A stretch of DNA of 64,000 bases, taken from positions 1 through 64,000 of the forward strand of contig JAFGQG010000037.1 in the NCBI GenBank assembly GCA_016935765.1, written 5' to 3'. The notes under the pieces were generated by a model. It was not told the origin of the DNA. It saw only the letters and a program-made list of their open reading frames with translations, and ran no database searches. Of the stretch, positions 4,120 through 34,664 are shown piece after piece (positions within the stretch are counted from its first letter, which is position 1; the number at the start of each line of letters is the position of its first letter). This stretch comes from a bacterium (lineage in GTDB: Bacteria > UBP14 > UBA6098 > JAFGQG01). Both the position numbers and the translations under genes were made by a program.

Positions 4120-6348
4120 ATGACCTGTCGATCCATACTTTTTATCTTTATTTATTCTATTTCCTTCATTATTCTTCAATCGTTAATCGTTAATCATTAT
4201 TCTATTTCCTGTGCCTCCGTTCCCCGTATTATCCACTACCAGGCAGGCTTGCACGATGATTCGGGCGCGCCGTTAGCGGGTTCCCATACCATAACATCCA
4301 GTCTATACACCTGGGAAGTGGGCGGCACCCCTATCTGGACTGAAATTCACACTGTGGAAATCGATTCGTTCGGCCTGTATGAAGTAATGCTGGGTTCCTT
4401 AACATCGTTCGAGAGCGCGGATGTAGATTTTGAAGAGGGTTATTACCTGGGCATTTCGGTTGATGGTGGCGAGGAAATAGGACGGCATCAGATCGGTTCA
4501 GCGCCATACTCCTTTCACGCTGCTTATGCGGATAACATAGCAGGAATCTCTAATATTGTCAAGAGTATTAATGATGTGGAACCGGATAGCAGTGGCGATA
4601 TTAAAATTGTTGAAGGGGCTTACATAAATATCAGCGAAATTCCTGATAGTAACATTATTCGCATTTCAGCAGAGGATATTCCCAGCGTACCCAATCCTCT
4701 TGTCGTCGGCGATGTTGAACCCGGGATCGTTCAGGTCATGAATGGAACTGGAGTAGCTGCGGTTGAATTAAATGGAACCCCGGGTGTGGATTACAAATTA
4801 AAAGCAATTACCTCCGGTAGTGAAACCGCTCATGGTGTAGTTGGGATCACAGAATCAACAGGAGACAGTTCCGCTGGGATATTTGGAAAAGCCACAGTTG
4901 ATGAAAGGCTCAACTACGGTGTTAAAGGTATTACAAATTCCTATGATCCTGACGCTGCTGGAGTATATGGGGTTAATACTTCCGCTACAGCGCCCTTTCC
5001 GGTTGGGGTAATGGGACAGGTGTATAGTGAATCCAGTATCATTTTTGATGCAATGCCGAGAGGAGTATTCGGAGAAGCTAAAGGACCGCTTGGGACAGGT
5101 GTCATGGGGATATCGAGAGGCAGCGAAGAAGGATCCTACGGGGTATGGGGAATCTCTCAAAATAGGATCGGGGTCAAAGGTGAAACTTATTCAGGAGACC
5201 CTGCTTCTGCTGGTATCTTAGGTTTAGCGGACACCGGAAAAGCTGTTGGAGTGTATGGCAAAACTGCCTCGAACTCTGGCAGCGCAACAGCAATTAAAGG
5301 TGGAGCTTCAGCAGATATTGGTGAGACTATCGGTATCCATGGTATATTAAAAAGTTGCTGCGGAACCGGAGTGCTGGGTGTTGGATTCTGCGGTGTGCTT
5401 GGAGAAGCGAATGAAGAGGGCGAATTTGGTGTGATGTCATCCGGAACATTCCTGGTTGGCGGCGGTTCTCCTTTTTACACCACATTTACTGTTGAACCGG
5501 CAACTAAAAGCATCAATATCTATAATGATGGTATGTTGTTGACAAGATTCGGCACTTCGGAACGTCGCGTTGCAATTCAAAAGGTCAATAATACTGCAAC
5601 TCCCACACTTGGAGACAATAATTTTATAATTTCCGCCGAAGCTCCCCTATTGATAGCCAACGGTGATCATGGCATAACCATCAGTTGTCCAGATTGCTGC
5701 GAGGAACCCTGCGGTGGAGGGGGAAGTACTGTTTGCGATTGCGAAAGCCTAATTACCACTGGTGGAGGTGGAAGGAATGGAAAAGTCGTTATTTATAATG
5801 ATGATGGAACCGAAGCAGTCAGTATGTCTGGCAGTGTTTTATCCGAGTTCAAACTCGGTGGATTCGGTAAGCATGGCTCCCTGGAGGTCTTCGATGCATC
5901 AGGGGATTGGTTATCAAAAATGCGGGAGCTTGGCGCTGCATATTTCGTACCTATGACCATTTATAACGATTTCAATGTAACCGGGACAAAAAGTTTTATC
6001 GCGCCCCATCCCGAGCATGAAGGCATGGATATCAAATTCTACTGCGCGGAACCCCCGGAAGTGATGATCGAGTACCGCGGGTCAATAGAATTAACCGAAG
6101 GTTACGGCGAGCGGGTGCTCCCCCATGAATTCAAATTGGTGGCTTAACCTGGAACATATTCGGTTATGTGCACTCCTCAGACACTTGACATCCCCGACGG
6201 GATCGGCGCTTTGGTTAACGAAGAGGGCGCAATCAAGATCAGGGCGCGAGGCGGTGATGAAAATACGAAAGTCGCCTTCGTGGTTTACGCGACCAGGGCA
6301 GGCTATAAGGATCACCCGGTCGTTGTACCTTCGCAGGCTATGGATTGA
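4120..6348 (+). pseudogene. Array repeat protein 2, interrupted by an in-frame stop near the C-terminus
   Basis: The ORF starts with a strong AAAGGAGG and runs 675 codons with the full family layout: signal peptide (to about residue 31), YQA variant of the N-terminal domain, linker (INDVEPDSSGDIKIVEG), a shorter G-V-x-G repeat field, RVAIQKVN...IPDNNF-like segment (TLGDNNF) and CPDCCEEPCGGGGSTVCDC near residue 522-545. At 6145-6147 the expected Met-Ser-Glu after PHEFKL reads Val-Ala-stop (TAA). The same frame then continues without lesion to 6348 through the rest of the C-terminal domain (TYSVMCTPQ ... AGYKDHPVVV). One GAA-to-TAA change therefore removes the last 67 residues. It could be a young pseudogene, a truncated but exported product, or a sequencing error. 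Confidence 0.8.
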
Positions 6349-7722: not shown

Positions 7723-7727
7723 TTAAA

Positions 7728-7819
7728 ATCAAGACGAAGGCTTGATTAATATCAAGACGAAGGCTTGATTAATATCAAGACGAAGGCTTGATTAATATCA
7801 AGACGAAGGCTTGATTAAT
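7728..7819. repeat. Four-copy 23-bp tandem repeat, each unit a hairpin
   Basis: Four identical 23-base units start at 7728, 7751, 7774 and 7797. Each contains ATCAAG and CTTGAT, giving a 6-bp stem around ACGAAGG. The units abut without spacers, so this is not a CRISPR array. It resembles clustered repetitive extragenic palindromes. Confidence 0.8.
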
Positions 7820-9979: not shown

Positions 9980-11086
9980 ATGTTCGGAACAATACTATTA
10001 ACTATTATCTCTATTATGCACATCTATGTTTTCTGGCGTGCATTTTCAGTACCCATTATAAAAAAGCACCGGATTTCCAGAATACTCCTCATTGTGTTAG
10101 GAATATTATTATGGGGGATTTTTCTCCTGGGACGGCTTTATGGTCACGGGGAAACCGGAACCCTGGCTGTATTACTGGAATTCTGCGGGATGAATTGGAT
10201 GGCGATAATATTCCTTGCTTTCACCTGCATACTGGTGGTTGACATCTTAACAGGATTTGGATTCTTATTCCGTAAGAAAGCACCATCTTTAAGAGGCTGG
10301 GCGCTGGCCGTCGCGGGACTAATGTCTGCTATTGCGCTGTTCCAGGGGCTTCGCGCACCTGTTGTCAAAAATTATGAAGTCAGTATTTCCAATTTACCTG
10401 CGAAAATGGACGGCAAGGTGATCCTTGCACTCTCAGATACGCACCTCGGCTCACTTATCGGCAAAGATTGGCTGGTGGCGCGCGTTAAGCAAGTAAATGA
10501 ACAACAGCCTGATTTCGTCTTTCTACTCGGAGATGTTGTGGAAGGACATGGTATAAATTACGAGGAACTGGTTCCAATTTTCAGTCAACTTTCAGCATCA
10601 AAGGGAGTCTGGGTAGTTCCCGGTAACCATGAACGCTACGGCCGCAATAACCGGAGTATGCAGACAATGGAAGAGGCTGGATTCGAAGTACTCCGTGATT
10701 CATGGGTTGAGGTTGATACCGGTTTTATCCTTGTGGGTGTGGAAGATTTTACCTCTACCCGCCGTTCCGGCAAGGGTAGTGAACAGCTATTAAGGGCTCT
10801 TGAAGGGCGGCCACCGGGTGCCACCATTCTCCTTTCCCACACCCCCTGGTATGCTGATGTTGCAGCAGGAGCCGGTGTGGGATTGATGCTCTCAGGACAC
10901 ACTCACGCCGGGCAGGTCTGGCCATTTAATTACCTGGTCAAGATCCGCTACCCCCTGATCGCAGGACGCTATGAAATAGAAGGGATGACCGTCATCGTCT
11001 GCCGCGGAACCGGCACCTGGGGACCACGCATGCGGCTCTGGCACCCCGGTGAAATTCTGCGGGTTACCCTGCATGGCACCAAATAA
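9980..11086 (+). CDS. Membrane-anchored calcineurin-like metallophosphoesterase
   Basis: The first 125 of 368 residues contain about four hydrophobic helices. They are followed by a complete metallophosphoesterase domain: LSDTHLGS (about 152), LLGDVVEGH (about 183), PGNHERYG (about 213), LLSHTP (about 282) and LSGHTHAGQVWP (about 304). These are the metal-binding Asp, His and Asn residues of the YkuE/YaeI-type branch, which contains inner-membrane phosphoesterases acting on lipid or nucleotide phosphates. It follows the permease by nine bases with a GAGAG-like ribosome site, suggesting an operon. The functional link between the two is unknown. The domain sits after the helices, so its side of the membrane depends on a topology not resolved here. 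Confidence 0.88.
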   Translation: MFGTILLTIISIMHIYVFWRAFSVPIIKKHRISRILLIVLGILLWGIFLLGRLYGHGETGTLAVLLEFCGMNWMAIIFLAFTCILVVDILTGFGFLFRKKAPSLRGWALAVAGLMSAIALFQGLRAPVVKNYEVSISNLPAKMDGKVILALSDTHLGSLIGKDWLVARVKQVNEQQPDFVFLLGDVVEGHGINYEELVPIFSQLSASKGVWVVPGNHERYGRNNRSMQTMEEAGFEVLRDSWVEVDTGFILVGVEDFTSTRRSGKGSEQLLRALEGRPPGATILLSHTPWYADVAAGAGVGLMLSGHTHAGQVWPFNYLVKIRYPLIAGRYEIEGMTVIVCRGTGTWGPRMRLWHPGEILRVTLHGTK

Positions 11087-11465: not shown

Positions 11466-13699
11466 ATGTCCCACCAATCAAAGTTTTTTGTTTTTCTCTT
11501 CATTTTCATTGGTGCATTGCTAATTGCTAATTGTTAATTGCATCCATCCCTCAACTTGTTTCCTACCAGGGACACCTCGCGGATGAATCAGGGGATCCCC
11601 TAATCGGAAGCCACACTCTTACTTTCAGGCTTTATGACACTGAAGCGGGAGGATCAGCGATCTGGTCGGAGATCCACACCGTTGAGCTCGACTCAGTAGG
11701 ATTATATAGCCTGATGCTGGGCTCCATTTCTTCGTTCGCCAGCGCCGGTGTTGATTTTTCAGTCCCTTACTGGATGAGCCTCTCTGTGGACGGCAGTGCG
11801 GAACTGGGCAGACACCAGGTCGGCGCTTCACCCTATTCATTCCACGCCCATTATGCAGATAGTCTATCAGGAATTTACAATTATGTCAAGAGTATTAACG
11901 AGGTGGATCCCGATGAAATGGGCAATATCGAACTGCTCGAAGGCGATAATGTCACCATTACCGAAATGCCGGGAAGTAATGCGATCGAAATATCGTCAGA
12001 GTGTCCTCCCACACCAGAAATTACAATTGATGGCGTTCTCCCGGATGAAAGCAGCAATATCGACCTGATCGAAGGGGCAAATATCAACATCGACGCTATT
12101 CCGGACAGCAATAAAATAAGGATTTCCGCTACGGGTGGAGCGGCAGGCGGCATGAATTCGGTCAATGAAGTACCCCCTGACGGTGATGGTAATCTCCAGC
12201 TGATTGAAGGTGAAAATATCACAATAACCGAAATACCTGACAGCAATAAAATTCGCATAGACAGCCGTGATTACCCTCATCCCAACCGGGTTATTCTGGG
12301 TAACGATACCGAGCATGGAGCCCTTCAGATGAGAAATCAGTCCGGACAGGTGATTTTAATTGCTGAGACTGATCCTGCAAGCCAGGGTTTACTAGTAGTA
12401 ACTCCTAACACAATGATGCAAGCCCTCGGAGTAGCGGCAAGCGGGGAGGGAACCTATAATGCTATTAGCGCAATGACTGAAAGCCCGGGAAATGATGTAG
12501 CAGGAGTGTACGGTTTGGCAAATACAGGAGGCAGAAGTTATGGGCTGAAAGGTTTGACCATGAGTAGTGCAGATTCATCAGCAGGAGTACTTGGAATGTC
12601 GGGTGGTGGATTGACTTATGGAGTTTATGGTATTACAGGAAGTGAAGATTGGGATGCTGCCGGTGTTTTTGGTCGATCCCTGAATAATGGTAATGGAGTT
12701 CTTGGAATAACAGCATCAGAAAACACCACGGTCGCCGGTGTGCAAGGCATTGCTGAGGATGGAATAGGCGTTATGGGTGAAGGTATTATCGGAGTGGTAG
12801 GTATCGAAGACATTTTTGGAACCGCTGCAATTATTTCAGACGGGAAATTCATTGTCGGAGATATTGAAGTCGAAAATACCGCTATGATTGTTGATCCGCT
12901 ATTTAATTCTACCAGTATTTATGGTACCGGAGACGATCCGATAACCATCTTTGGCGGTGCTTCTAATAGGGTCGCAATCCAGAAAGTCAATAACGGTCCA
13001 ACACCCACCATTCCTGACAATAATTTCACAATTGCCGCAGAAGCTCCCCTTCTCCTAACAAATGGTGCGCACGGTGTAACCATCAGTTGCCCGGAATGCT
13101 GCGAAGAACCCTGCGGGGGTGGAAGTGGGTGCTTATGTGAAGGCACTATGGTAGTCGGTGGCGGGGGTTCCGATGGAGAAATAGTGACCAGGTACAGCGG
13201 GGGTGGCGATATGAACTATATCGACCGGTACGGGATCAGTTCTGCTGATGTTATAAGCTCGGGTGGAGATACTCACGTCGGCGGCAACCTATACGTAACA
13301 GGTACAAAAGGCTTCTTAGTGCAGCACCCTGAGATGGATGATAAAAGTATCCTGTTTACATGCGCGGAATCCGATGAAGTAATGATCCAGCACCGCGGAT
13401 TGATCGAGCTGTCCGAAGGATACGGAGAAACGAAGCTTCCCCACGAATTCATCCTGATGTCCGAACCGGGCACATATTCGATAATGTGCACCCCTCAAGC
13501 GAGGGTTGATCCGGGAAGGATTGCCGCCTTAGTTACTGATGATGGGAAAGTCCAAATTCACTCATTCGATGGCCCCGAAATCTTGAAGGTTGCGTTCGTG
13601 GTCTATTCCTCAAGAGCCGGGTATAAAGACCAACGGGTTGTTATTCCGACAGATGAACTGATGAGCTGGAAGAAGCACAAAGCTATACGGGAGAACTAA
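11466..13699 (+). pseudogene. Array repeat protein 3, frameshifted inside its signal-peptide repeats
   Basis: ATG 11466 has a strong AGGAGGT and begins a typical signal peptide (MSHQSKFFVFLFIFIG), but the frame hits TAA at 11535-11537. The remaining 722 codons are open in another frame from 11531, where they lack a signal peptide. They contain the N-terminal domain (LVSYQGHLADESG), three linker modules instead of the usual one (PDEMGNIELLEG, PDESSNIDLIEG, PDGDGNLQLIEG), G-V-x-G repeats, RVAIQKVN...TIPDNNF, CPECCEEPCGGGSGCLC and a complete C-terminal domain with AGYKDQRVVI. Intact paralogues carry four 7-bp units at this point and this copy has three, so loss of one unit explains the shift. 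As read, no exported product is expected. It could be a recent inactivation, an off state or a sequencing error. Confidence 0.8.
11516..11541 (+). repeat. 7-bp tandem repeat in signal-peptide codons (three units left)
   Basis: Units ATTGCTA, ATTGCTA and ATTGTTA, then a partial ATTGC. Paralogues at 14410, 21569 and 25478 have four units plus the partial one. The hybrid third unit looks like a deletion between units three and four. Confidence 0.8.
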
Positions 13700-14359: not shown

Positions 14360-17300
14360 ATGTCCAACAAATCAAAGTTTGTCGTGCTGTTTTTTGTTGT
14401 CTATTTTGCATTGTTAGTTGTTAATTGTCCATTGATAATTGCATCTGTTCCCCGCTTGATTTCCTACCAGGGGCATCTAGCTGACGAATCAGGTCACCCA
14501 ATTGTCGGAACTCATACACTTACTTTTAAACTCTATACAGAACCGACTGGCGGGACCGAGTTTTGGACTGAAAGCCACGAGGTTGAGATCGACTCACTTG
14601 GGCTGTATAATGTTATGCTCGGTTCGGTTACCCCGTTCGGGGATGCAGGCGTTGATTTTGAGGTGCCCTATTATCTCGGGCTATCAGTGGATGGCGGCGC
14701 TGAGATCGGGCGCTATGAAGTGGGCTCCTCCCCATACGCGATACATGCTTACTATGCTGATAGCGTGGCGGTGGATGGTTACATTGCGACCATAAATGGT
14801 GTTCCACCTGATGGCACTATGAACCTGGAACTTGTTGAGGGAGAAGGAATAACCATAACTGAGATTCCGGACAGCAATAAGATACGGTTTTCCGGTGGGG
14901 ATTATGTACATCCTAACCGTATAACTTTAGGGAGTACTACTGAAAATGGGGCTCTATTCATAAGGAACAGAGCTGGTGATATGGTTTTTACGGCAGAATC
15001 TTCGCCAGATAGTACACAAGGAGTGAACATATATACCACCAGGACTAATTCACAAGCATTAGGAGTTTCTGCGTATGGAGATGGGCTTTATATGGGTATC
15101 GCTGCGACAACACTAAGTAGAGAGGACGAGGCTGTAGGAATTATTGGAAGTGCTATGGATATGTCTGCAAAAAATTATGGAGTTCGAGGTATGTCTTTAG
15201 GTTTTGGGGAAGGTTCTGCTGGAGTTTATGGTAATACCATGAGTTTAGGTATAAACTACGGTGTACTAGGGGAAGTAAGTACTTGTGTAGGATCTGCGGC
15301 TGGCGTTAAAGGTGTTTCCCTTGCTGAAGGCGATGCTGCATTTTCAAAGGGAGTCATTGGCGAAGCGCATGGAGGCGGAGATTACGCTGCAGGAGTGTAT
15401 GGTACCACTACTGGCGCAGGTAAGAATTATGGAGTCTGGGGCTCAATAGGTGTTGATTCCGAGGATAGCAGCGCTGGAGTCTTGGGAGACGATGGCATAC
15501 ACCCTGATGTAGTTACTTTTGGAGTGTATGGCATCTCAAGGTCCTTTGCTAATGAAGCAGCGGGGGTTTTTGGGAAAGCTACTTACGAAACCAGCCGGAA
15601 CTATGGAGTCAAAGGTCTAACACTAAGTGGAGCCGATTCAGCAGCGGGGGTTTTAGGAAAAGTAACAAGCGGAAATACTTATGGAGTTTACGGTTTATCC
15701 TCCAGTGAAGGTGAAGGGACTGTTGGAGTGTTAGGAAAAGCTACTGGTGATAATTTAAATTCCGGAGTTATGGGCATCAGTAACGGTACTGCTCAATTTA
15801 GTGCGGGAGTTACGGGCAATGCTAAAGCAAGTGATGGTTCCTCAGCCAAGGGTGTAATTGGATTATCCTATGGTGATGAAGCTGGTGCAAGTGGTGTATA
15901 TGGCTGCAGTTTTGGCTCGGGGAAAAATTATGGTGTTCAGGGTATAACCAGAAGTCCTGGAGATAGTACTGCTGGAGTTTTTGGCTCCGATTACATAACC
16001 GGAAGCAGTTATTACTCCTTTGGAATACATGGAATGACGTATAGTGCCATACCCGGGGTTTGTGGAGTACTAGGAAGAGCAATATCAACAGAGGGAAGTG
16101 AACTCTATGGAGTAAAAGGAGAAACTTTCTCTATGGGCGATGGAGCTGCCGGTGTATATGGACTCTCAAGAAATAGTGCTGGAAAAACATACGGTGTATA
16201 TGGGCAAACCAAATCAGATACTGATGGAACTGCAGGTGTTTTTGGTGTAACTGACTTCTTAACTTGCAAATCCTACGGAGTGCATGGGTTATCAAGAGCC
16301 ACTGGATTTGGCACTTATTCTGCTGGTGTTTATGGTGAAGTAGAAGATTCCACTGCCAGAATGAGTGTTGGAGTTCTAGGAAAATGTAAAGGAGACTATA
16401 ACTATGGTATGCGTTGTATTGGTAATTTCCGTGTAGATGATAATACAAATCCAGCATTCGCGGTAGATTATCAGAATAAATCGGTTTCAGTGTTCAATAC
16501 AAGCCATGAAGAAATCACTATTTTTGGAGGACCCACAAGCCGTGTTGCTATACAGAAGGTGAATAACACTGCAACTCCAACGATACCGGATAACAATTTC
16601 GGTATTACCGCCGATGCCCCTATTGTAGTTACCAACCTTGAACACGGTATAAACATAAGCTGCCCGGAATGCTGCACCCATCCATGCGCTGGAGGCGGTG
16701 GTTGTTACTGTGAATCAACATTCACAACAGGTGGTGGTGGAAGAAACGGCGAATTGAAGATCCTTACCGAAAGCGGAGAAACCGGGGCAAGTATTTACTA
16801 CAGCGCAGTGGATAATAAACACAATATAGAAGCAGGTGGTGAAGGCACACAAGGCAAGTTGATCCTCTGGGATGCCGAGGGACATCCCCTCTACGTCCTG
16901 TGCGATGTAGGACATCTCTTCCCAGATATATTCGCATATAAAAACCTTTTTGTTGATGGCTCCTTATTCGTGGCTGGCTTAAAGGGTTTTCTCTCACCCC
17001 ACCCTGAAGATGAAAGTAAGAACATCCGCTTCTCATGTACAGAATCTCCTGAAGTACTGATCGAATACCGCAGCGTTCTCGAACTTCAAAATGGATACGG
17101 AGAAATAGAACTCCCCCACGAATTCGTACTTATGTCTGAACCGGGAACGTTCTCTGTGATGTGTACACCCCAGACACTGGAACTTCCTGAAGAAGTTGGT
17201 GGAATTATTACAGAAAATGGTTTGGTAAAGATCAAAGCGCGAGGTGGAGAAGACAATATGAAGGTGGCATACATAGTATATGCAACCAGGAAGGGATATA

Positions 17301-17374
17301 AAGATACCCCGGTAGTTGTTACGGCAAAGGTTTTTAATATGGAAAGGCTGAAACTACCAACAGATGATAATTGA
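14360..17374 (+). CDS. Array repeat protein 4 (intact, 1004 residues)
   Basis: The start is supported by ATGGAGGTATCATA. The layout is a signal peptide whose core is encoded by five 7-bp units (LLVVNCPLIIA), the N-terminal domain to about residue 135 (LISYQGHLADESG ... SPYAIHA), one linker (INGVPPDGTMNLELVEG), and a long field of roughly 30-40 G-V-x-G motifs from about 200 to 690. RVAIQKVN...TIPDNNF follows, then the cysteine cluster CPECCTHPCAGGGGCYC near residue 767, and the C-terminal domain (SPHPEDESKNIRF, PHEFVLMSEPGTFSVMCTP, KGYKDTPVVV). The repeats alternate AGVYG and YGVKG types, suggesting a regular beta solenoid or trimeric roll, but no specific fold can be assigned. It is among the best complete examples of the family for structural work. 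Confidence 0.82.
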   Translation: MSNKSKFVVLFFVVYFALLVVNCPLIIASVPRLISYQGHLADESGHPIVGTHTLTFKLYTEPTGGTEFWTESHEVEIDSLGLYNVMLGSVTPFGDAGVDFEVPYYLGLSVDGGAEIGRYEVGSSPYAIHAYYADSVAVDGYIATINGVPPDGTMNLELVEGEGITITEIPDSNKIRFSGGDYVHPNRITLGSTTENGALFIRNRAGDMVFTAESSPDSTQGVNIYTTRTNSQALGVSAYGDGLYMGIAATTLSREDEAVGIIGSAMDMSAKNYGVRGMSLGFGEGSAGVYGNTMSLGINYGVLGEVSTCVGSAAGVKGVSLAEGDAAFSKGVIGEAHGGGDYAAGVYGTTTGAGKNYGVWGSIGVDSEDSSAGVLGDDGIHPDVVTFGVYGISRSFANEAAGVFGKATYETSRNYGVKGLTLSGADSAAGVLGKVTSGNTYGVYGLSSSEGEGTVGVLGKATGDNLNSGVMGISNGTAQFSAGVTGNAKASDGSSAKGVIGLSYGDEAGASGVYGCSFGSGKNYGVQGITRSPGDSTAGVFGSDYITGSSYYSFGIHGMTYSAIPGVCGVLGRAISTEGSELYGVKGETFSMGDGAAGVYGLSRNSAGKTYGVYGQTKSDTDGTAGVFGVTDFLTCKSYGVHGLSRATGFGTYSAGVYGEVEDSTARMSVGVLGKCKGDYNYGMRCIGNFRVDDNTNPAFAVDYQNKSVSVFNTSHEEITIFGGPTSRVAIQKVNNTATPTIPDNNFGITADAPIVVTNLEHGINISCPECCTHPCAGGGGCYCESTFTTGGGGRNGELKILTESGETGASIYYSAVDNKHNIEAGGEGTQGKLILWDAEGHPLYVLCDVGHLFPDIFAYKNLFVDGSLFVAGLKGFLSPHPEDESKNIRFSCTESPEVLIEYRSVLELQNGYGEIELPHEFVLMSEPGTFSVMCTPQTLELPEEVGGIITENGLVKIKARGGEDNMKVAYIVYATRKGYKDTPVVVTAKVFNMERLKLPTDDN
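14410..14442 (+). repeat. 7-bp tandem repeat in signal-peptide codons (four units)
   Basis: ATTGTTA, GTTGTTA, ATTGTCC, ATTGATA, then a partial ATTGC. Three 7-bp units equal seven codons, so the repeat cycles through all three phases; the ATTGTCC unit avoids the TAA that ATTGCTA would create in that phase. Confidence 0.75.
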
Positions 17375-17752: not shown

Positions 17753-20700
17753 ATGACACTTAAAACAAATCTGTTTGTCCTAATCCTTTTTCTTTCATTC
17801 ATTATTCTTCTAAGCGTTAACCAATTCGGAGAATTGGTTTTAGGAGTATTCTTTGAAAACTCCCGAATTATTTGTTCTCCTTTATACGCCTCTGTTCCCG
17901 AGGTAATTCACTACCAGGCAGGATTGAGTGATGACAGCGGTACCGCATTAACCGGGACTCATATACTTACTTTCAGGCTTTATGCTGAAGAGACCGGCGG
18001 AATACCGATATGGACTGAAACCCATGAGGTTGATATGGACTCGTTAGGTTTTTATGATGTTATGCTCGGTTCGGTCACTTCTTTTGAAAGCGCGTCTGTG
18101 GATTTTTTTCTACCCTACTGGTTAAGCCTCTCCGTTGATGGCGGAGTCGAAATGGGCAGGCATGAGATTGGCACATCACCTTACGCATTCCATGCTCAAT
18201 ACGCGGATAGTATAGCAGGAATATATAATTACGTCAAGACAATTAATGAAATTGATGCCGATGAAACAGGAAATATCGAGTTTATCGAAGGCACAAACAT
18301 TACTTTAACAGAAATACCCGCAACTAACCAGATACAGATTTCTGCCACTGGTGACGCGGGGGGCATTAGTTCAATAAACGATATTGCACCGGATGCTGAA
18401 GGCAATCTGCTATTGGAAGAAGGGGAAAACATAATCATAACAGGGATTTTAGACAGTAATAAAGTAAGGATTTCAAGTGGCGGCGCACCCCATCCCAACC
18501 GTGTGACTCTTGGCAATTCCACCGAGCATGGTGCTTTATTCGTTTACAACCAAGGCGGGGAGCTGGTTACCAGGATTGAAAGCGCTCCTGACTCAACACA
18601 GGGTGTACTTGCAAAATCCTTTGTTGATGACAAATCTGCAATAAGGGCTGAAGCGCATGGTGCAGGTTATGCTACAGGAATTATTGGATATACTTTCAGC
18701 GATGGTGATGGTGCGGCAGGAGTTTATGGAAGCGCTCTAAGGTCCTCAGGAGTGACATCAGGTATTTTGGGGGAGACATACAGCACCTCAGACTATGCTT
18801 CAGGGATATGGGGTTCAGCGGAGGGAACTGAAGGGAGGACTTATGGTGTGGGAGGAGTGAACGAAAGCTCTTCTGACAGCGCTGTGGGTGTTTACGGAAG
18901 GGTTGCAGCTGGCAACCATACTTACGGTGTTTATGGATTGACAAGGAGCACAGGTTCTGAAAGCGCCGGTGTTTATGGAAAAGCAATAAATGGCGAGACA
19001 AATTACGGAGTTCTTGCGGAGACTTACTCCAATGATGAAGTCGCCGCAGCATTACTCGCGAGGGCTCTTTCAACTGATGGATCCTCAGCGAAAGGGATTG
19101 TAGGGTATGCACAAGGAAATGAAAGAGATGCTGACGGAGTCTGGGGGATTGCTACAGGACATGGAAGAAACTATGGTGTGAAAGGAATGACACAGAGTAA
19201 CCATGACAGCAGCGCCGGAGTTTACGGTGTGGCAGGATTTTTGTTCGGTTCCGGCTTGGTCTTCGGTGTTATGGGTGAGACCTTTTCCGAGGCGCAGGAC
19301 GCAGCGGGGATTTATGGCTTGACCCGCAATGTATCTGAGCAAAGGCTTTACGGCGTAAGAGGTGAAACCAGAGCTACGGGTGAGCATGCAGCTGGAGTAT
19401 ATGGAAGGGCATTAGGCAATACTGGTAAAACTGCAGGGGTTTACGGTTATACTGCTTCTGCCGATACTGGCGCTTCGGGAATCCTGGGCTGGGCTGGTCA
19501 AATGAGCCCAGCTATTTATGGTGTCCAAGGCTTTACATCCGGTTCTGATGATGCTGCTGGTGTTTATGGCTATTCTGTTAATGGAGTATCATTTGGCGTA
19601 TTAGGCAAAAGTACTTCCATGGTAAGGAATACTGCTGGAGTCATGGGAATTGCCAATGGCGATGCAGCCTATCCTTCAAAAATCTACGGGATTAGAGGAA
19701 GTACAAACATGGATGCCGATACATCGGCAGGAGTCTGGGGAGAAGCAACAGGCGCTTTACAAAAGGTCTATGGCGTTTATGGAACATGTTATTCTAATAA
19801 TGATTCAGCTGCTGGAGTATATGGGTTAGCCATTAACAATGCAAATGGTGTTAAGGGGAAAAGCTCAGCGATAGGATATAACACCGCTGGGGTTTTCGGC
19901 ATTAATGAAGCTGGAGCAGGGGTTATAGGTGAAGGCCAGATCGGCGTTTTAGGACGCTCGGATCTTCTTTTTGGTGTAGCTATATTGTCAGACGGTGTTT
20001 TTGTAGTCGGTGAACCCTACATGGATGACATAGCTTTTAAAGTCACTCCAGGTGCTAATGAAACCCATATCTACGGAATGGAGTATAATCCTATTACTAT
20101 TTTCGGCGGTTCTTCCAACAGGGTTGCTATTCAGAAGGTGAATGGCGGTCCCACGCCTACCTTGTATGACAACAATTTCATGATAGAGGCAGAAGCTCCA
20201 TTGCTTGTAACAAATGGAGCGCACGGTGTAACAATAAGCTGTCCTGAATGCTGCACATCACCATGCGGTGGAGAAGGCGGAGGGTGTGTTTGTGAATCCA
20301 CCCACACAATAGGCAGCGGAGAAAGCCCGGGCGAACTGAAGATCATTAATAGTGGGGGAAGTGTCGGCGCAAAAATATACTATGAGCCCAGCGGAGATGA
20401 TTGTGTTATTAAAGCTGGAACGTTTGGAGTCAATGGTAAATTGTTGATCACGGGCAGTGCCGAAGGAGACACGATCATGGCTGCCAGTTGCGCATCTGTG
20501 AATCTCAATAAGCATGTTTATACTAAGCATGATGTGTGTGTTCTGGGAGATTTAATTGTTTACGGATTCAAAAGCTTCCAGACACCACACCCCGAAATCG
20601 AGGATAAAGACATACGCTTCTACTGCGCTGAATCAGACGAAGTGATGATCGAACACCGGGGTACCCTTGAGTTGAATGATGGCTATGGCGAAAGTCAGCT

Positions 20701-21521: not shown

Positions 21522-24500
21522 ATGAAACACAAAACGAAGTTGTTTTTTTCCTTTTTATTCGCTGTTGCAATGATAATTGCTAATTGTTCATTGCTAATTG
21601 CACAGATCCCCCGAGATAATACATTAGCAGGGGAGATTAAGCGATGAAACCGGTGAACCCTTGACCGGAATCCATACCATTAATTTCGGACTATACACTG
21701 AAGAGACGGGAGGAACACCATTATGGACTGAAACACATGTTGTTGATATCGATTCAATGGGCTTGTATGATGTAAACCTGGGTTCTTTTATCAATTTTGA
21801 AACCTATTCTGGAAATTTTTCGGAGCCATACTGACTCAGCGTATCAGTGGATGGTGGCACCGAAATGGGAAGACACGAGATCAGTTCCTCCCCCTACTTC
21901 TTTCATGCCCAATATGCAGATAGCATAACAGGTATTAGTAATTTTGTCAAGTCAATTAACGACATTGCTCCAGATGATGAAGGAAACATAGTTTTCTCAC
22001 CCGGTGAAAATATAACCATTACTGAAATAACCGACAGCAATAAGATTAGAATAGACAGCCGGGATTACCCACATCCTCACAGAGTTATTCTTGGTGATGA
22101 TCTCACTAATGGCGCACTATTTGCAAGGAATACCGCAGGACAACAGATAGCCCGTATTGAAACGACTAACGATTCAACCCAGGGGATTCTCGCCAACACT
22201 ATCGTTAATGACAGAGCTGCGATAATTGGGAATGCTAACGGCTCGGGTATATCTCCCGGCGTCCTGGGATTGACAAATAGTAAATCGACTGATGCCGCCG
22301 GAGTTAAAGGGATAGCTATGAATTCGGCAGCTGATGCCTTATCACACGGAGTTATCGGTATAACTTATGCCTTTGGCGATAATGTTGCCGGAGTCCATGG
22401 AACTGCAGATGGTGAAGGTCTGGGCTATGGTGTTTACGGTAAAGCTGGCGATCATTCAGCAGATAACTCTGTAGGAATTCTTGGAGAAGCAATGGGTACT
22501 CATTTAAGTTACGGAGCGAAGGGAATTACTCATTCTAGTACTGATGATGCTTGTGGAGTTCTCGGGCAATCGGTTGCTATTTCGGGAGCAAGAACCTTTG
22601 GGGTTAAAGGAGTTGTACCATCCACTGGAGAGGGTTCAGCCGGAGTTCGCGGCGAGGCTACATCAACATCGGGCTTGGTCAATGGTGTTACTGGTATCAC
22701 TAACTCTATCCAAGGCATTGGTGTTGAAGGTTTTGCAGAAGCTATAAGTGGGACGACCTTCGGGGTCAAAGGAGTGACGTGTTCATCAGATTCATCCGCT
22801 GCTGGGGTTCTGGGTTGGGCTGATAATATTTCTAATGCCAGCGCTGCAATCATAGGTCGTGGTGACCTTAGAATATACGATCGTACCGAATTTTTTAAAG
22901 TTTTCACAGTGCGCACTGGTGGTATACATCAGGTAAACATATATGAGTTGAATGAGTTGATAACCGCGTTCGGGGGTCCTACTAGAAGAGTTCCCATCCA
23001 GAAAGTGAACACCTCCGCTACTCCGACTATCCCGGACAATAATTTCAATATTACTGGTGATTCTCCTATAACGGTTACTACCGGCGCGCACGGCGTTACT
23101 ATCGGCTGCCCTGACTGCTGTACCGAACCGTGTGGCGCAGGTGGAATTGCCTGCAGGTGTGACAGCACACTTACCGTGGGCTCTTCCTCACACGCAGGTG
23201 TTATTAATGTAAAAACAGCAACCGGCGAAGTAGCCGTTAAACTCACCGCTGCGGACGTTGCTGGACCCAAGGTTAAATCATCCGTTCCAGCAACTGCAGA
23301 TCTACTATCTGTGGCAAGATTTGAGGCGTACCAGGATACTCCCTACGATGACAGCGATGCTAAAGCAGCCATTAAAGGTTACTGGAATTCCGGGAGTCCC
23401 ACAGGTCATGGTGTTTTCGGTTTTACAAGTTCCGGTGAATCATCCGCTGGCGTATTCGGTAAAGCTGGTTCTTTAGAGGAGATATCTCCCTCTTATGGAG
23501 TCAGTGGTGTTACTGAGGGTAACGGTCCTTTATCCGCGGGTGTTTATGGTGAAGCTATGTCAACAACTGCTCAGGTCTATGGAGTTTCCGGCCATATCCG
23601 CTCAGAAAGCCCCAATTCTGCCGGATTAGAGGGCAGGGCTTTTTCAGAAACAGGCGTCGTCTTTGGTGTTTCTGGCTATTCCATGTCATCTGGTACTAAC
23701 TCGTCTGGAGTATACGGAGAAGGTGAAGCATCAACCGGAACGATAAGTGGTGTAAGAGGTATAACACGGTCATCTGGAGATTATTCTTCCGGAGTATCGG
23801 GTGAAGCTATTTTGGGAACTGGGAAGATATATGGAGTCTTAGGAAAAACGAATTCCAGCGATAGTCTCTCAGCAGGGCTTATGGGTTGGGCTGATAGTAC
23901 CGGGCAGAGCGCAGGCTTGCTAAGTTCCGGTGATCTTAGAGTATGTCTTACTGGAGGACCGGAATCCCCCACTGTATTCACTATTTCCGTGGCGAATGAA
24001 CAAGTCAATATGTACCAGGCAAGTGAACTGATAACTGCTTTTGGAGGTTTTGATAGAAGAGTAGCCATTCAGAAAGTGAACTCTGTAGCTACCCCAACTA
24101 TTCCTGATAACAACTTCACCATCACTGCTGATGCTCCCATAACGGTTACTACCAGTGCTCACGGTGTCAATATCAGTTGCGAAGACTGCTGCACAGAACC
24201 CTGTGGTGGCGGCGGCGACGGATGTAACTGCGATTCGACCTTGAAAGTCGGCAGCGCGAGCAAACCAGGTGGCGCTCAGGTAATAAACTCCTCAGGTAAT
24301 CCCGCATTAGAAGTGAGCCAATCAGGAACTATGTGCAATCTAAACGTAGGTGGTATTGGAAGTCATGGAGAAATTAGTATATACGATAATGTCGGAGATT
24401 ACGCTTATATTAACCTTGCTAGCTGGGGGGCATATTTCGCCGTCCATACAGGATTTGAAGACATCACTGTGGAAGGTAGTGCCGATGTTGATTGGGATTT

Positions 24501-25430: not shown

Positions 25431-28400
25431 ATGAACAAAACAATGAAGCTGTTTTTTCCATTTATTATCATTGTTTCATTGGTAATTGCTAATTGTTCAC
25501 TGGTAATTGCCCAAATCCCTGAGATAATACATTACCAGGGAAAGCTTAGCGATGACAGTGGAGCGCCATTGACTGGAAGCCATACACTTACGTTCAAATT
25601 CTATACAGTGGAGACAGGTGGAACCCCGATATGGACAGAAACCCAGGATGTAAACCTCGATTCGCTGGGTTTATATGATGCACTACTGGGTTCAGTCACC
25701 AGCTTTGAAAGCGCTTCCGCTGATTTTTCAACTTCCTACTGGATAAGTGTTTCAGTGGACGGCAGCCCCGAAATGCCAAGGCAGAAGCTAGGTGCCTCAC
25801 CGTACTCCTTCCATTCCAAATGTGCAGATAGGATAAGTGGTAGTGGAAGTCCCTGCGCATGCGAGAGTACTCTCACAGTGGGTTCTGCCTCCCGCCCGGG
25901 AATTATCAGAGTTAAAACAGCAAGCGGTGAGGTTGCAATTACTCTAACGGCAGCAGATATTGCTGGACCAAGGATTAAATCCTCGGCACCAACAAGTTCT
26001 GGGTTACTTAACATAGCAAGATTTGAGATATACGACACTACTCCTTATGATGACGCTAGCGATAAATCATCCCTTAAAGGTTACTGGAATTCAGCAACAA
26101 ATCCAGGTAATGGGATCGTTGGTTTTACAAACTCTGAGGGCCAGGCAGGTGTGGTGGGAAAAGCTGTTCCTTCAGTATCTAGCGTAGCAGCGATTGGAGT
26201 ATATGGAAGGTGTGAAGCAAACGGTGAGCTGTCCTCCGGGGTCTTTGGTGAGGCTTCGTCAACAACCGGGATTGTAAATGGAGTAATGGGGGCTACTAAC
26301 TCAAACGAAGGTACCGGAGTTTTTGGAGGGGCTACGGATTCAACCGGAAAAAACTATGGTGTCAAGGGGAGGACACTTTCCAATAATGTCCGTGCTGCCG
26401 GGATACTTGGTATCGCCCCCAACGATGGGAGAAGCGCTGCGATTGAAGGTCAAGGAAACTTGAGAATTTACAGTTCGTCTGAATTGACCGCGCCTCTGGT
26501 TTTCGAAGTTGCTGCAGATAGTCAACAGGTAAACATTTATGAAGGTGGTAACCTTATTACCGCTTTTGGGGGTCCCTATCATAGAGCTGCTATTCAAACA
26601 GTAAACAGCACAGCAAAACCCACTATTCCGGATAATAATTTTACAATCGTTGGAGAAGCCCCAATAACAGTCACAAATGATTGGCATGGAGTTATCATCG
26701 GGTGTCCTGATTGCTGTACCGAGCCTTGTGGTGCTGGTGGAATTTCCTGTAGATGCGACAGCACCCTCACCGTAGGTTCCTCCTCACGGGCTGGCGTTAT
26801 AAAAGTAAAAACAGCAACCGGCGAAGTCGCCGTTACTCTTACCGCTGCAGACATTACCGGTCCAAAGATCAAATCATCTATTCCACTTACTGCGGAACTC
26901 CTCTCGGTAGGGAGATTAGAGGCATACGAGGGCACTCCCTACGATGACGGCGGAGCAAAAGCGGCTTTTAAAGGTTACTGGAATTCAGCTACACATCCAG
27001 GTAATGGCATATTTGGTTTTACTAGCTCGACATTCCAGTCTGGAATATTGGGTAAAGCTATTCCCTCAGATATACATTCTACTGCTTTTGGAGTGATGGG
27101 CATTACTGAAGCAAATGGTGATTATTCAGCAGGAGTCTTTGGGGAAGCTACATCAACAAGCGGCTCAGTAAACGGGGTTAGTGGTATCACTAACTCAAAC
27201 CAGGGCATCGGAGTTGAAGGCCTTGCCGAATCTACTAGCGGAGTAACTTTTGGTGTTAGAGGAGTAACAGCTTCTATCGATACCCTTGCCGCCGGGGTAA
27301 TTGGTATCGCTGACAGTGCTGGTCATAGCGCTGCCCTTATGGGTATTGGTGGCCTCAAAATATATGATCCTTCTACTGCCGCTCTCTCTCCGGTTTTCAA
27401 GGTACTAACCGGGAACGACCAGGTAAACATGTATGAAAGTGGTGAACTTATCACAACATTCGGTGGTTCCACTCGAAGAGTAGCTATCCAGAAAGTGAAC
27501 ACCTCCGCTACACCCACTATCCCTGACAACAATTTCAGTATTACTGGGGATGCTCCAATAATAGTAACTACAGGCACACATGGAGTTACAATTGGTTGCC
27601 CTGATTGCTGTACTGAACCTTGTGGAGGTGGTGGCGGGATATCCTGCGCATGCGAAAGCACGCTGACAGTCGGCTCCGCCTCCCGATCAGGCGTTATCAA
27701 AGTCAGAACTGCAACTGGCGAGGTGGCTGTTACTCTTACTGCTTTAGAAGAATATGGTCCAAAGGTCAAATCTTCTATCCCTGTAAGTTTAGGTTTAAAC
27801 TCGGTGGGAAGGATCGAGACTTACGAAGGCGCTGCCTATGATGATGGAGGATATAAGGCAGCATTTAAAGGCTACTGGAATTCTTCCACTTATTTAGGTG
27901 ATGGTATTTTCGGTTTTACAAAATCAAATGCCCGTGCAGGTGTGTTTGGAAAGGCAGTATCCTCTGGCGAATATTCTATATCATACGGCGTCAAGGGAAT
28001 TATTGAAGCGGATGGCGAAGGATCATCAGGTGTCTATGGAGAAGCGATTTCGGAAACAGGAATAGTCCGTGGTGTTTATGGTATAACTAATTCTGCTGGA
28101 GATTTCGCATGTGGGGTATTAGGAAAATCAGATCATACCTCAGGTGAAACCTTTGGTGTAATCGGTGAGACCAAAAGTGAAACTTCTCAATCTGCAGGCG
28201 TATATGGTAAAGCTGGTTTTGTAACCATCGGGGTTGCTACAGGAATGGTTTATGGAGTCAGGGGAGAAAGCTATTCAGCTACACCTTATTCAGCTGGTGT
28301 TTTTGGCTCAGCTGGTTTCGGGGGGGGATCGGGAAGAGTATATGGAGTTATCGGAACCATAACCACTGATGCAGATAGCGCTGCCGGAGTTCTTGCAGCA

Positions 28401-29747
28401 GCGCCATTTGGGTCAGGATTGGCTTTTGGTGTCCACTCAAAAGTCTCAAGCAACAGGGATGGCGCTGCGGGGATCCTTGCTGAATCTAAGAGTACAGCAG
28501 GTAAAACTTATGGAGTTTGTGGAAAAACCTTTTCCTCTACTGCGGGAGCTGCAGGCGTGAGTGGGATGACAGAATCTGATTCAGGATTCGTTAGCGGTGT
28601 GGAGGGTATGACCTCATCAAAAAATGGCACAGGTGTGTCTGGTATAGTATTTAGTACTTCAGGAACAAATTATGGTGTTGAAGGACTCACTTACTCTTCG
28701 GATAGTTCTGCTGCTGCTGTATTTGGGCGTGTATCAGTTCCCCAAGCTGCTGCCTTTCTTGGTAATGGTGATCTCAGGATTTATAATAGTACCGGATTTA
28801 CACCGGTCTTCAAGGTGTTAACAGAACTTGAGCAGATAAATATGTACCAGGGTGGTGACCTTATCACTGCATTTGGCGGTCCTACGCGAAGAGTGGCTAT
28901 CCAAAAAGTAAACACAACTGCAACTCCCACTATTCCTGATAACAATTTCACTGTAGCTGGTGATGCTCCCATAACTGTAACTACCGGGGCTCACGGCGTC
29001 ACTATCGGCTGCCCGGATTGCTGCACCGAACCTTGCGGCGGTGGCGGAGGAGGCTGTGCCTGTGGATCAACATTTACAGTTGGTACCGAAAGTACTCCCG
29101 GTGCCGTTAAAGTAGTTAATTCGCATGGTAATGACGGATTAACCATTACCAATGATGCTGCTTACCCTTACGCTTGCGAGTTGAAAGTGGGTGGAAACCT
29201 CAGCAAGGGTTCAATTGAAATTTGGGATCCTACAGAAACCATGGCTACAATAAACCTTGCTATTGATGGGTCGTATTTCAGCTGCCCCTGGACGGGATTT
29301 AATGACATTATCGTGGAAGGTGATGCAGAAGTACAGGGTGATTTAGAAGTGTTGGGAGCTAAAGATTTCAGGGTGCCTCATCCCGAAATAGAAAATATGG
29401 ACATCCGGTTTGCCTGCACCGAATCCCCCGAAGTCATGATAGAGTACTGCGGAGTCCTAGAACTTGATAGCGGGTACGGTGAAGCGGAACTCCCCCACGA
29501 ATTCCAGTTGATGTCCGAACCGGGAACCTACCGCATAATTTGCACCCCCATGGGGAGTGAAGACCCGGGAAGGATATCTGCTGAAGTCACCGAGGATGGG
29601 ACCGTTAAGATTTACAGTTTCGATGGACCGGAATCGTTAAAGGTTACTTATAATATCAAAGCTACACGTGTCGGTTATAAGGATCGTCCGGTGGTTGTTG
29701 AATCCAGGAAACATGCTAGCCTAAATACTCAAGTAAGAGCGCAGTAA
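25431..29747 (+). CDS. Array repeat protein 7 (intact, 1438 residues, internally duplicated modules)
   Basis: This is the largest array member. The signal peptide (LVIANCSLVIAQ) is encoded by 7-bp repeats, followed by the N-terminal domain to about residue 135. The body is then built of successive modules. Each begins with a CxC-STLTVGS segment, continues through GEVAxTLTA, a Y-DD element and KGYWNS, runs into G-V-x-G repeats, and ends with AIQxVN...TIPDNNF and CPDCCTEPCG. Module starts fall near 25855, 26747 and 27644, spaced about 892 and 897 bases, with a longer third module to about 29054. The C-terminal domain (VPHPEIENMDIRF, PHEFQLMSEPGTYRIICTP, VGYKDRPVVVE) closes the protein. The first module lacks the preceding CPxCC cluster. 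The near-regular spacing indicates tandem duplication of a module of about 300 residues. Confidence 0.82.
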   Translation: MNKTMKLFFPFIIIVSLVIANCSLVIAQIPEIIHYQGKLSDDSGAPLTGSHTLTFKFYTVETGGTPIWTETQDVNLDSLGLYDALLGSVTSFESASADFSTSYWISVSVDGSPEMPRQKLGASPYSFHSKCADRISGSGSPCACESTLTVGSASRPGIIRVKTASGEVAITLTAADIAGPRIKSSAPTSSGLLNIARFEIYDTTPYDDASDKSSLKGYWNSATNPGNGIVGFTNSEGQAGVVGKAVPSVSSVAAIGVYGRCEANGELSSGVFGEASSTTGIVNGVMGATNSNEGTGVFGGATDSTGKNYGVKGRTLSNNVRAAGILGIAPNDGRSAAIEGQGNLRIYSSSELTAPLVFEVAADSQQVNIYEGGNLITAFGGPYHRAAIQTVNSTAKPTIPDNNFTIVGEAPITVTNDWHGVIIGCPDCCTEPCGAGGISCRCDSTLTVGSSSRAGVIKVKTATGEVAVTLTAADITGPKIKSSIPLTAELLSVGRLEAYEGTPYDDGGAKAAFKGYWNSATHPGNGIFGFTSSTFQSGILGKAIPSDIHSTAFGVMGITEANGDYSAGVFGEATSTSGSVNGVSGITNSNQGIGVEGLAESTSGVTFGVRGVTASIDTLAAGVIGIADSAGHSAALMGIGGLKIYDPSTAALSPVFKVLTGNDQVNMYESGELITTFGGSTRRVAIQKVNTSATPTIPDNNFSITGDAPIIVTTGTHGVTIGCPDCCTEPCGGGGGISCACESTLTVGSASRSGVIKVRTATGEVAVTLTALEEYGPKVKSSIPVSLGLNSVGRIETYEGAAYDDGGYKAAFKGYWNSSTYLGDGIFGFTKSNARAGVFGKAVSSGEYSISYGVKGIIEADGEGSSGVYGEAISETGIVRGVYGITNSAGDFACGVLGKSDHTSGETFGVIGETKSETSQSAGVYGKAGFVTIGVATGMVYGVRGESYSATPYSAGVFGSAGFGGGSGRVYGVIGTITTDADSAAGVLAAAPFGSGLAFGVHSKVSSNRDGAAGILAESKSTAGKTYGVCGKTFSSTAGAAGVSGMTESDSGFVSGVEGMTSSKNGTGVSGIVFSTSGTNYGVEGLTYSSDSSAAAVFGRVSVPQAAAFLGNGDLRIYNSTGFTPVFKVLTELEQINMYQGGDLITAFGGPTRRVAIQKVNTTATPTIPDNNFTVAGDAPITVTTGAHGVTIGCPDCCTEPCGGGGGGCACGSTFTVGTESTPGAVKVVNSHGNDGLTITNDAAYPYACELKVGGNLSKGSIEIWDPTETMATINLAIDGSYFSCPWTGFNDIIVEGDAEVQGDLEVLGAKDFRVPHPEIENMDIRFACTESPEVMIEYCGVLELDSGYGEAELPHEFQLMSEPGTYRIICTPMGSEDPGRISAEVTEDGTVKIYSFDGPESLKVTYNIKATRVGYKDRPVVVESRKHASLNTQVRAQ
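25478..25510 (+). repeat. 7-bp tandem repeat in signal-peptide codons (four units)
   Basis: ATTGGTA, ATTGCTA, ATTGTTC, ACTGGTA and a partial ATTGC, in frame, encoding LVIANCSLVIA. Confidence 0.75.
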
Positions 29748-32381: not shown

Positions 32382-34664
32382 TTATTGTAGGCTTACAAGA
32401 ACGAGTACGAGTCCGGTTTCCTCATCGAGCTTACTCATCGCCTTCCCTATAACCGCTCCATACGCTTGATCATAATCTTCGACTTTCATTGCGTGCCCGG
32501 GAATATCAGAAGTAGTCAGCAGGTCACCAGGTTCGATCGTACCGTTAGAGTTTGTAGCATAGGCATACACGCGCCCGGAGAGTGCAACCGGGTGTTCGCC
32601 GTCTGCTATTGTGCCTTCCTGTCCCATCACCATACCTGGATTAACGCCTCCCGCGCCGCTGACAATTCCCGCAACCTTCTTATCATAGGCTACTTCACAG
32701 AGTTTAAGCTTTCCGGGATTCTGCGGGTCGATGGAGAGTATCATACCAGGTTCGATTTCAGATTTCTCAGGGACTTCGAAGGGTTCCGCGATATCTGAAC
32801 CGCCCGTTATCTTGAGAATCGCGCATGTTGTTTTACCGAGGGAATCCACCTGGAATACTGGATGCCATCCCCCCAGGTAGCTGTCGCAGCGTATGAATTG
32901 ACCGCCATTCAAAGCGGAAATGCCGAGAGCAAAGCCATCAGTAGAATTGGTCTCCAATATGAGAGCGACACCCTCCCCCGTGGTTGCTTCATTTTCGATG
33001 CGGACGGTGGAGTAATTCCAGTATCCACCGGAGGCATTGGAGCTGACGAACAGTTTATGGTCCCCGGGGGTTGAAGTGCCGATCCCGGTGTTACCTGCGA
33101 TTCCAACTACGCCATCATTCCTCCCTACTGTCAGATGAGGTCCGTATATAGTTCCGGACGACTTTCCGTACAATTGGAGATTATTTGCATCACCGTCGAA
33201 CCTGAAGAACATACCATAAGTCCCATCGTTGTCTTCCGCCAGGAAGAGGTGTGAATTACCGCCGTTTAGCGACCTGTTGGGTGCTACCATGAGCTGCGTT
33301 AGGGTGTCTCCGCCAACGAGGTGCAGGTCGCAAACCGGGGTTGTGGTTCCAATACCTATACTACCACCAACTGCGGAATGCATATTTACTCCATCAACTA
33401 TCCAGTCATTATCAACGGGTGAGGAGCCCAGAACGGTCAGGTCACCTGTGATGTTGACATTTCCCTGGAAGTAACCCGCCCAGTTCGTATCGGCATCTTC
33501 GGCGAAGCCATATACACCATAGGCGATAGGGCAAGTAAATCCGTCCGCGTAGCCATAAACACCATATACCCCGCTGCCGGTAGTAGAGCAGTCCCCCTTA
33601 CCGTAAACACCATAAGCGGGGGAACCGTCACCGGAACAGTATGCGTCGCCATAAAGACCGTAAGCCGGTGTGTTGATGCCAGAACTGCGACTTCTACCAT
33701 AAACTCCATAAGAATTAGAAGTATCACCAGAGTCATATACATAACCATAAACGCCAAAAACATCTACGTTGTTTTCCGTGTTATATCCATAACCATAGAC
33801 TCCATAAGCTTTATTAAGGTCGGTAGTTGCGTAACCATAAACCCCGTATGCTTCATCATCTGCATCTGCACGGAAATAGCCTCCGTAGGCATCCGCGGAA
33901 TCTCCCGCAGCGTCATCCGCGTCCGCAATGCCATACACCCCATACGCATTGTAATCATAAATAGTATCGATTTTACTCTTACTATAGATACCGTACTGGG
34001 AATTCTGGTTAGCTTCACAGTATGCATAAATCGCATAGTTGGTAGAAGCATCCCTTGTGTTTTTTGCATAAATTGCTCTTTGAAATTCAGTATTTTCGAC
34101 CTGTAGAAGGTAAGCTGGTGATGGAGTTCCGATACCGACCCTTCCACCGGGGCTTTGAAATATTATTGAGCTTCCTAAGTCCCCGGCTGCGTTCCATATC
34201 GGGATGAAGTTTTCCGTTCCTGAGCCGCCTACCGCGCCGCCTATTATGCTGTCAGCCAGTCCAGCTCTAAGGGCATAAGGGGCGGAAGTGAACTTCATTC
34301 GCGGCAATAAGCGATCTCCATCTACTTCAATTTCCAGCCAGTAACCTGTGTCGAAAACCAGGTCGAGTGGTGTGATGGAACCCAGTACTAAGTCGAACAA
34401 TCCTTTTCTGACCGGCACATCCAGGTGATTCTCATCCCATATACTGCTTGGACTTATTGAATCAGCGAAAATTAAAAAGTGAATATCAACTGTGTCATTT
34501 ATTCCGACACCATCGATGCTTGTGAGTTTCCCCTGGTAGGTTATCAAGCGCGGGACAGCGGCAACGACAGATGAATGATGAATAACGAACAGGGATTGAA
34601 AAATTAAGAAGGAAAAGAAAAAAACAGGAATAAAACTTAACGATACTTTTCTGGGATAATACAT
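32382..34664 (-). CDS. Secreted YGVYG-repeat protein with a different C-terminal domain
   Basis: This 760-residue protein shares the N-terminal domain with the array (LITYQGKLTSIDGVG, GLFDLVLGSITPL, SAPYALRA, after a signal peptide to about residue 36) and has a field of YGVYG repeats (about residues 200-410). The rest differs: WIVDGVNMHSAVGGSIGIGT (about 430), a beta-rich middle, then SDIAEPFEVPEKSEIEPGMI, GKLKLCEVAYDKKVAGIVSG and LLTTSDIPGHAMKV near the end. This C-terminal type is widespread in secreted bacterial repeat proteins and resembles self-processing or trimerising tail-protein ends. The cysteine cluster and GYKD domain are absent. The start is supported by AAGGAGAT. It is followed by the protease gene after 17 bases. 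Confidence 0.8.
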   Translation of the reverse strand: MYYPRKVSLSFIPVFFFSFLIFQSLFVIHHSSVVAAVPRLITYQGKLTSIDGVGINDTVDIHFLIFADSISPSSIWDENHLDVPVRKGLFDLVLGSITPLDLVFDTGYWLEIEVDGDRLLPRMKFTSAPYALRAGLADSIIGGAVGGSGTENFIPIWNAAGDLGSSIIFQSPGGRVGIGTPSPAYLLQVENTEFQRAIYAKNTRDASTNYAIYAYCEANQNSQYGIYSKSKIDTIYDYNAYGVYGIADADDAAGDSADAYGGYFRADADDEAYGVYGYATTDLNKAYGVYGYGYNTENNVDVFGVYGYVYDSGDTSNSYGVYGRSRSSGINTPAYGLYGDAYCSGDGSPAYGVYGKGDCSTTGSGVYGVYGYADGFTCPIAYGVYGFAEDADTNWAGYFQGNVNITGDLTVLGSSPVDNDWIVDGVNMHSAVGGSIGIGTTTPVCDLHLVGGDTLTQLMVAPNRSLNGGNSHLFLAEDNDGTYGMFFRFDGDANNLQLYGKSSGTIYGPHLTVGRNDGVVGIAGNTGIGTSTPGDHKLFVSSNASGGYWNYSTVRIENEATTGEGVALILETNSTDGFALGISALNGGQFIRCDSYLGGWHPVFQVDSLGKTTCAILKITGGSDIAEPFEVPEKSEIEPGMILSIDPQNPGKLKLCEVAYDKKVAGIVSGAGGVNPGMVMGQEGTIADGEHPVALSGRVYAYATNSNGTIEPGDLLTTSDIPGHAMKVEDYDQAYGAVIGKAMSKLDEETGLVLVLVSLQ

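Follow-up and report, generated by a model that had tools for sequence, protein, structure and literature searches.

Gene 11466 and its protein family

In the window, the whole stretch of 64,000 nucleotides analysed here, an SD-like AGGAGG at about 11454 lies just 5' of an ATG at 11466. Translation from this ATG gives MSHQSKFFVFLFIFIGALLIANC and is terminated by TAA at 11535-11537. The body of gene 11466 lies in the -1 frame relative to the ATG, in an open reading frame that runs from TTG at 11531 to 13699, and alignment shows that it matches the mature N-terminus of its paralogs (SIPQLVSYQG...) from the first residues on. Translation and ORF coordinates thus confirm the initial annotation, which had placed a stop at 11535 and the body out of frame. 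TRF reports ATTGCTA at 11516-11541 in 3.7 copies with 89% matches, and because TAA at 11528-11530 closes the body frame upstream as well, all three frames of this array are closed. Ribosomal frameshifting or transcriptional slippage at the T-runs 5' of the array was considered and rejected for the same reason: with the body frame closed at 11528, the shift would be needed within 11531-11537, where there is no slippery heptamer. Recoding of TAA, an idea raised by single-TAA lesions in several paralogs, seems unneeded, as ordinary genes of the window end in TAA (for example, 9980-11086).

The N-terminal domain of the family (∼108 aa) has 45 matches in its own genome and many in the class. Pfam holds no family for it, loose E-values included, and a search of PDB sequences with a profile of the domain gave no match. 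In NCBIfam, it matches Bdello_MAT_N at 14-22 bits, below the cut-off of 60 (best E = 1.5e-4); this is the domain following the signal peptide in the mosaic adhesive trimer (MAT) fibres of Bdellovibrio (PMC10769870). AlphaFold2 predicts a six-stranded beta domain just past the signal peptide (mean pLDDT 82), for which Foldseek found no PDB fold at E ≤ 0.001, in agreement with the reported lack of a PDB homologue for the MAT N-domain (PMC10769870). Like the Bdellovibrio MAT proteins, the family has many paralogs, a beta-rich domain of ∼110-130 aa right after the signal peptide and a long repetitive body (PMC10769870); unlike them, it scores under the NCBIfam cut-off, and it has no significant match to a PDB sequence or fold. 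We infer from these likenesses a family of fibre-like surface proteins rather than membership of MAT.

Five family members were found broken in the genome (11466, 21522, 4120, L036 and L040), a minimum, as outside the window the N-terminal regions alone were inspected. Gene 21522 carries three lesions past its array: an extra C that shifts the frame (CCCCC near 21607), an in-frame TAG a short way on, and a TGA near 21833. In 4120, TAA at 6145-6147 replaces an E of its relatives inside the conserved C-terminal domain; the frame beyond it stays open for ∼65 further codons of conserved sequence. L036 has TAA at a position where relatives have Q, and in L040 (G000:C83:11500-12500) a TAA in place of Q falls exactly at the junction of signal peptide and mature protein, with the body open. 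As these four carry lesions outside the arrays, the array is not the usual site of inactivation, and 11466 alone among the family members seen is closed within its own array.

No ortholog of 11466 was found in 61 genomes or in a scan of genome contigs. Outside its own genome, the best matches cover it in part and do not exceed 58% identity, and the nearest relative examined, which belongs to another genus, is without the gene. Our preferred reading of gene 11466 is that it belongs to a large surface-protein family in partial decay and was inactivated recently, when one unit of its signal-peptide array was lost or replaced; the one feature that would point to a recent lesion is the open body.

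Coordinates of the features of gene 11466 and of its paralogs in the window
Feature	Positions	Strand	Basis
5' part of the broken gene (start codon, n-region, signal-peptide core)	11466..11537	+	translation
Heptad array ATTGCTA ATTGCTA ATTGTTA ATTGC (3 units + partial)	11516..11541	+	TRF, paralog comparison
Open body of gene 11466, 722 codons, out of frame with ATG 11466	11531..13699	+	
Four-unit array, signal peptide of intact paralog 14360-17374	14410..14441	+	TRF
Four-unit array, signal peptide of paralog 21522 (pseudogene by later lesions)	21569..21601	+	TRF 21574-21601
Four-unit array, signal peptide of intact paralog 25431-29747	25478..25510	+	TRF
Second heptad type AATCGTT, 3.1 copies, signal peptide of paralog 4120	4178..4199	+	TRF
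Signal-peptide region of paralog 32382-34664, heptad-like GTTATTC/ATCATTC units	34557..34664, approximate	-	by eye
Palindrome ACCAATTCGGAGAATTGGT in the signal peptide of paralog 17753	17820..17838	+	

Heptads in the signal-peptide cores

The proposal that the signal-peptide cores are encoded by heptads was borne out by TRF, which finds period-7 arrays at 11516, 14410, 21574 and 25478. When units were counted by hand, starting after the first xxATTG, 14360, 21522, 25431, L018, L038 and L044 had four and L036 four or five, so that all seven other ATTG-type paralogs have at least four units, compared with three in 11466. The initial annotation had drawn the same contrast of three against four, and it stands by count, except that 21522, a pseudogene, is no intact comparator. 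Intact copies also contain a stop-avoiding unit (TCC, TTC, CTC or TGC replacing a TA-ending unit), which is absent in 11466.

To test the heptad signal against chance, we used codon shuffles, which preserve codon content and not codon order, so that a hydrophobic gradient could contribute a little to the excess: self-match at lag 7 in 41 family signal peptides was 0.368, compared with 0.293 in the shuffles (z = 10; 0 of 1000). Further peaks appeared at lag 14 (z = 7.6) and lag 21 (z = 6.2); lags 3, 4, 6 and 15 were also raised, at z = 4-5, well under lag 7. For 13 of the 41 signal peptides, none of 1000 codon shuffles reached the combined lag-7 and lag-14 score; the lag-7/14 z of L013, taken as evidence for the AATCGTT array of paralog 4120, is 5.2. 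Heptad-built cores occur in about 15 of the 41 examined members of the 45-copy family, and at least three heptads are in use: ATTGYTA, giving LLIANC-type cores, TTAATCG/TTATTC, giving LIVNHYS-type cores, and TTTACTG, giving FTSYCLL. A palindrome, ACCAATTNGGAGAATTGGT, has two genomic copies at up to one mismatch (17820-17838 and G000:C163:10582-10600, in L158), both within family signal peptides and in different frames (NQFGELV and HQPIWRIG).

On a tree built from the N-terminal domain, with the signal peptide left out, the ATTG type requires 7 changes, compared with a mean of 7.4 in shuffles, and supported branches force at least four of them; the TTAATC and TTTACTG types, taken together, require 5 (6.6 when shuffled). 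The label for no heptad was clustered, with 6 changes compared with 12.3 in shuffles, so heptad signal peptides are confined to certain clades. Inside these clades the type changes freely, as would be expected under exchange or re-acquisition of cores. About 30 family members sampled from other genomes had, by eye, ordinary signal peptides.

Simulated changes in unit number showed that no duplication, of a single unit or of a block, opens 11466, the sole opener being removal of two of its three units. Gaining or losing a single unit always closes 14360 and 25431, which can stay open only when units change in multiples of three. The arithmetic of the initial annotation, by which one added unit would be no repair and two lost units would restore the frame, is therefore correct, and it makes a two-way switch unlikely.

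The heptad as a dispersed, mostly intergenic repeat

Searching the 3.98-Mb assembly of the genome for the pattern ATTGNTNATTGNTNATTG gave 51 matches, compared with 1 for a reversed control. These sites form 34 arrays, 6 of them in family signal peptides and 28 elsewhere; 23 of the latter overlap no ORF of at least 80 codons, 3 overlap short doubtful ORFs and 2 the 3' ends of longer ORFs. We read all 34 arrays and found none at any other convincing gene start. The heptad thus behaves as short tandem repeats (STRs) of bacterial genomes do, its 7-bp units being repeated in tandem at numerous loci, above chance and for the most part between genes. This intergenic repeat, overlooked in the initial annotation, explains the signal-peptide arrays without any switch.

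The other signal-peptide types, TTACTGC and TTATTC-type heptads, are likewise found intergenically: TTACTGC arrays directly follow ATTG arrays at C5:9745, and TTATTC and TTACTG units stand together at C57:30039. For the TTAATC type, a strict pattern gave 3 matches compared with 6 in its control, so its dispersal rests on arrays at C90 and C57, and for the TTACTG type the reversed control itself had 6 matches, which makes the count uninformative. The sub-motif TTGTCCATTGATAA is common to the signal peptides of 14360 and L036 and the C5 intergenic array. Exact stretches shared with intergenic arrays reach 25 bp in L016 and 21 bp in 11466, compared with a codon-shuffle maximum of 13, although a shared unit alone gives some match length and long exact matches are thus no proof of copying. 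The 21-bp partner of 11466 is a heptad array that adjoins a tRNA-Glu-like gene.

The distribution of ATTGNTNATTGNTNATTG among relatives is patchy, with 0 matches in the same-family genome G001, 49 in G013 and 62 in the more distant G017, and the arrays of other genomes, where readable, are mostly intergenic. On contigs C5 and C36 of G017 the heptad is paired, one copy on each strand with ∼40 bp between them, which hints at inverted-repeat elements with heptad ends. Many intergenic arrays of the genome itself are flanked by longer dispersed repeats, GGCTGAAGCCATGCGGCTAC upstream and CCAAGCGGTACAGGCACGCC downstream, at sites on G000:C23, C49, C50, C120 and C141 (L127, L129, L130, L136 and L140), some of them where a contig ends, which hints at composite repeats as a cause of breaks in the assembly. 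Positions 7723-7819 of the window, where no ORF is listed, contain 4.2 tandem copies of a 23-bp unit at 98% identity.

Heptanucleotide STRs have been reported as over-represented in bacteria and poorly characterized (PMC4692102), and known examples are TAACTGA of Beggiatoaceae, cyanobacteria and Bacteroidetes, the heptanucleotides of Calothrix and GGGAATC of Xanthomonas (PMC4679880, PMC4692102). Like them, the arrays described here are numerous and consist of a few 7-bp units each, and they share a mostly intergenic location, a taxonomically patchy occurrence and the mixing of related unit sequences in a single array (PMC4679880, PMC4692102). They differ in their units (ATTGYTA, TTAATCG and TTACTGC), set apart from TAACTGA and GGGAATC by the descriptions in those papers, and in that a subset forms the sense-strand signal-peptide cores of one gene family. 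In the Beggiatoaceae study, sets inside ORFs are described as reverse-oriented, and the term 'signal peptide' is absent from the paper (PMC4679880). Rickettsia palindromic elements (RPEs) are likewise small dispersed repeats taken in frame into protein-coding genes (PMC10969869); unlike the 7-bp tandem units here, whose coding use is limited to the signal peptides of one family, RPEs are palindromes of ∼150 bp in unrelated genes.

Origin of the arrays and fate of 11466

We consider it likely that a non-coding repeat was repeatedly co-opted as a signal peptide and that 11466 is an inactivated copy. The signal-peptide arrays would be copies or descendants of the dispersed heptanucleotide repeat, which in one secreted fibre-like family would repeatedly have come to serve, by uptake or exchange, as the hydrophobic core of signal peptides. 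Since 7 mod 3 = 1, all three frames of an array encode one heptapeptide, which for ATTGYTA is LLIANC and then a stop. This heptapeptide is hydrophobic and would be open once one unit has mutated away from TAA; selection may then fix the total length and the stop-avoiding unit, normally at four units. The lesion of 11466 would then be the deletion of a single unit, or its replacement by conversion, and this was probably the unit that avoided the stop; the frame would thereby have been closed, recently, in a gene whose body has otherwise stayed open. The changes on the tree could also reflect a different history, in which the signal-peptide type was inherited and then lost several times instead of gained.

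In a protein-driven account, a conserved hydrophobic heptapeptide, SLLIANC, would have been duplicated or inherited, with the DNA repeat as a by-product. Intact cores do show a 21-bp, seven-residue repeat (LVIANC-SLVIA; TRF period 21 at 25470-25510), but lags 7 and 14 are stronger than lag 21, all three being above the codon shuffles, three unrelated heptad sequences are in use, the same DNA heptads form 28 arrays outside the family, and the peptide is absent from the signal peptides of the relatives sampled. We therefore regard this account as unlikely. We give similarly little credence to a consensus error, by which the missing unit would be an artefact and the gene intact in cells: the assembly is in 200 contigs and 89.9% complete, and the body of 11466 is otherwise open, but the 26-bp array lies well inside an ordinary read and within an 80-kb contig, and as the units present have in-frame TAA potential, miscounting of identical units cannot restore the gene. 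That the body is translated separately into a non-secreted product, by a restart at TTG 11531 overlapping the stop at 11535, seems very improbable; this TTG precedes the stop by 4 nt and lies in the -1 frame, but the array is without a Shine-Dalgarno sequence and the product would have no signal peptide, whereas every intact paralog examined has one.

The initial annotation had raised slippage as a possible, though unusual and one-sided, route to switching secretion; turning secretion on and off in this way would resemble the CTCTT repeats in the leader peptides of Neisseria opa genes, known for phase variation (PMC3960869, PMC3899988). Both are multi-copy surface families (45 matches here) with short tandem repeats in the 5' leader or signal-peptide region and a unit that is not a multiple of three, and here the repeat lies in the signal-peptide core, with one paralog out of frame. 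Opa repeat numbers, however, vary and switch expression both ways, whereas the arrays here have 3-4 imperfect heptads, near-constant among paralogs (four units in nearly all other ATTG-type copies), TAA occurs in all frames of the short array, and copies of the repeat are common between genes. The array of 11466, two identical units and one mismatched, is short for slippage; gain and loss of units do not alternately open and close the gene, duplications never reopen it and loss of two units is the sole way back, and the remaining broken paralogs carry lesions unrelated to arrays. Of known mechanisms, Opa-like phase variation comes closest, but the reversible frame change that characterizes it, by gain and loss of units, does not hold for 11466. 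Phase-variable secretion is accordingly improbable, and the switch idea should not be carried forward without read data.

Co-option of a non-coding repeat, as preferred above, bears on how signal peptides may arise. As the heptad is present both in intergenic DNA and, in three types, as a signal-peptide core, an origin of signal peptides from non-coding DNA becomes directly testable. Units of seven bases are favourable for such use, as the encoded peptide is independent of frame. Somewhat more tentatively, a non-coding heptad may repeatedly have made working signal peptides in one genome, ready-made, independent of frame and swappable between paralogs by recombination. If so, unit loss as in 11466 would be the price of heptad signal peptides.
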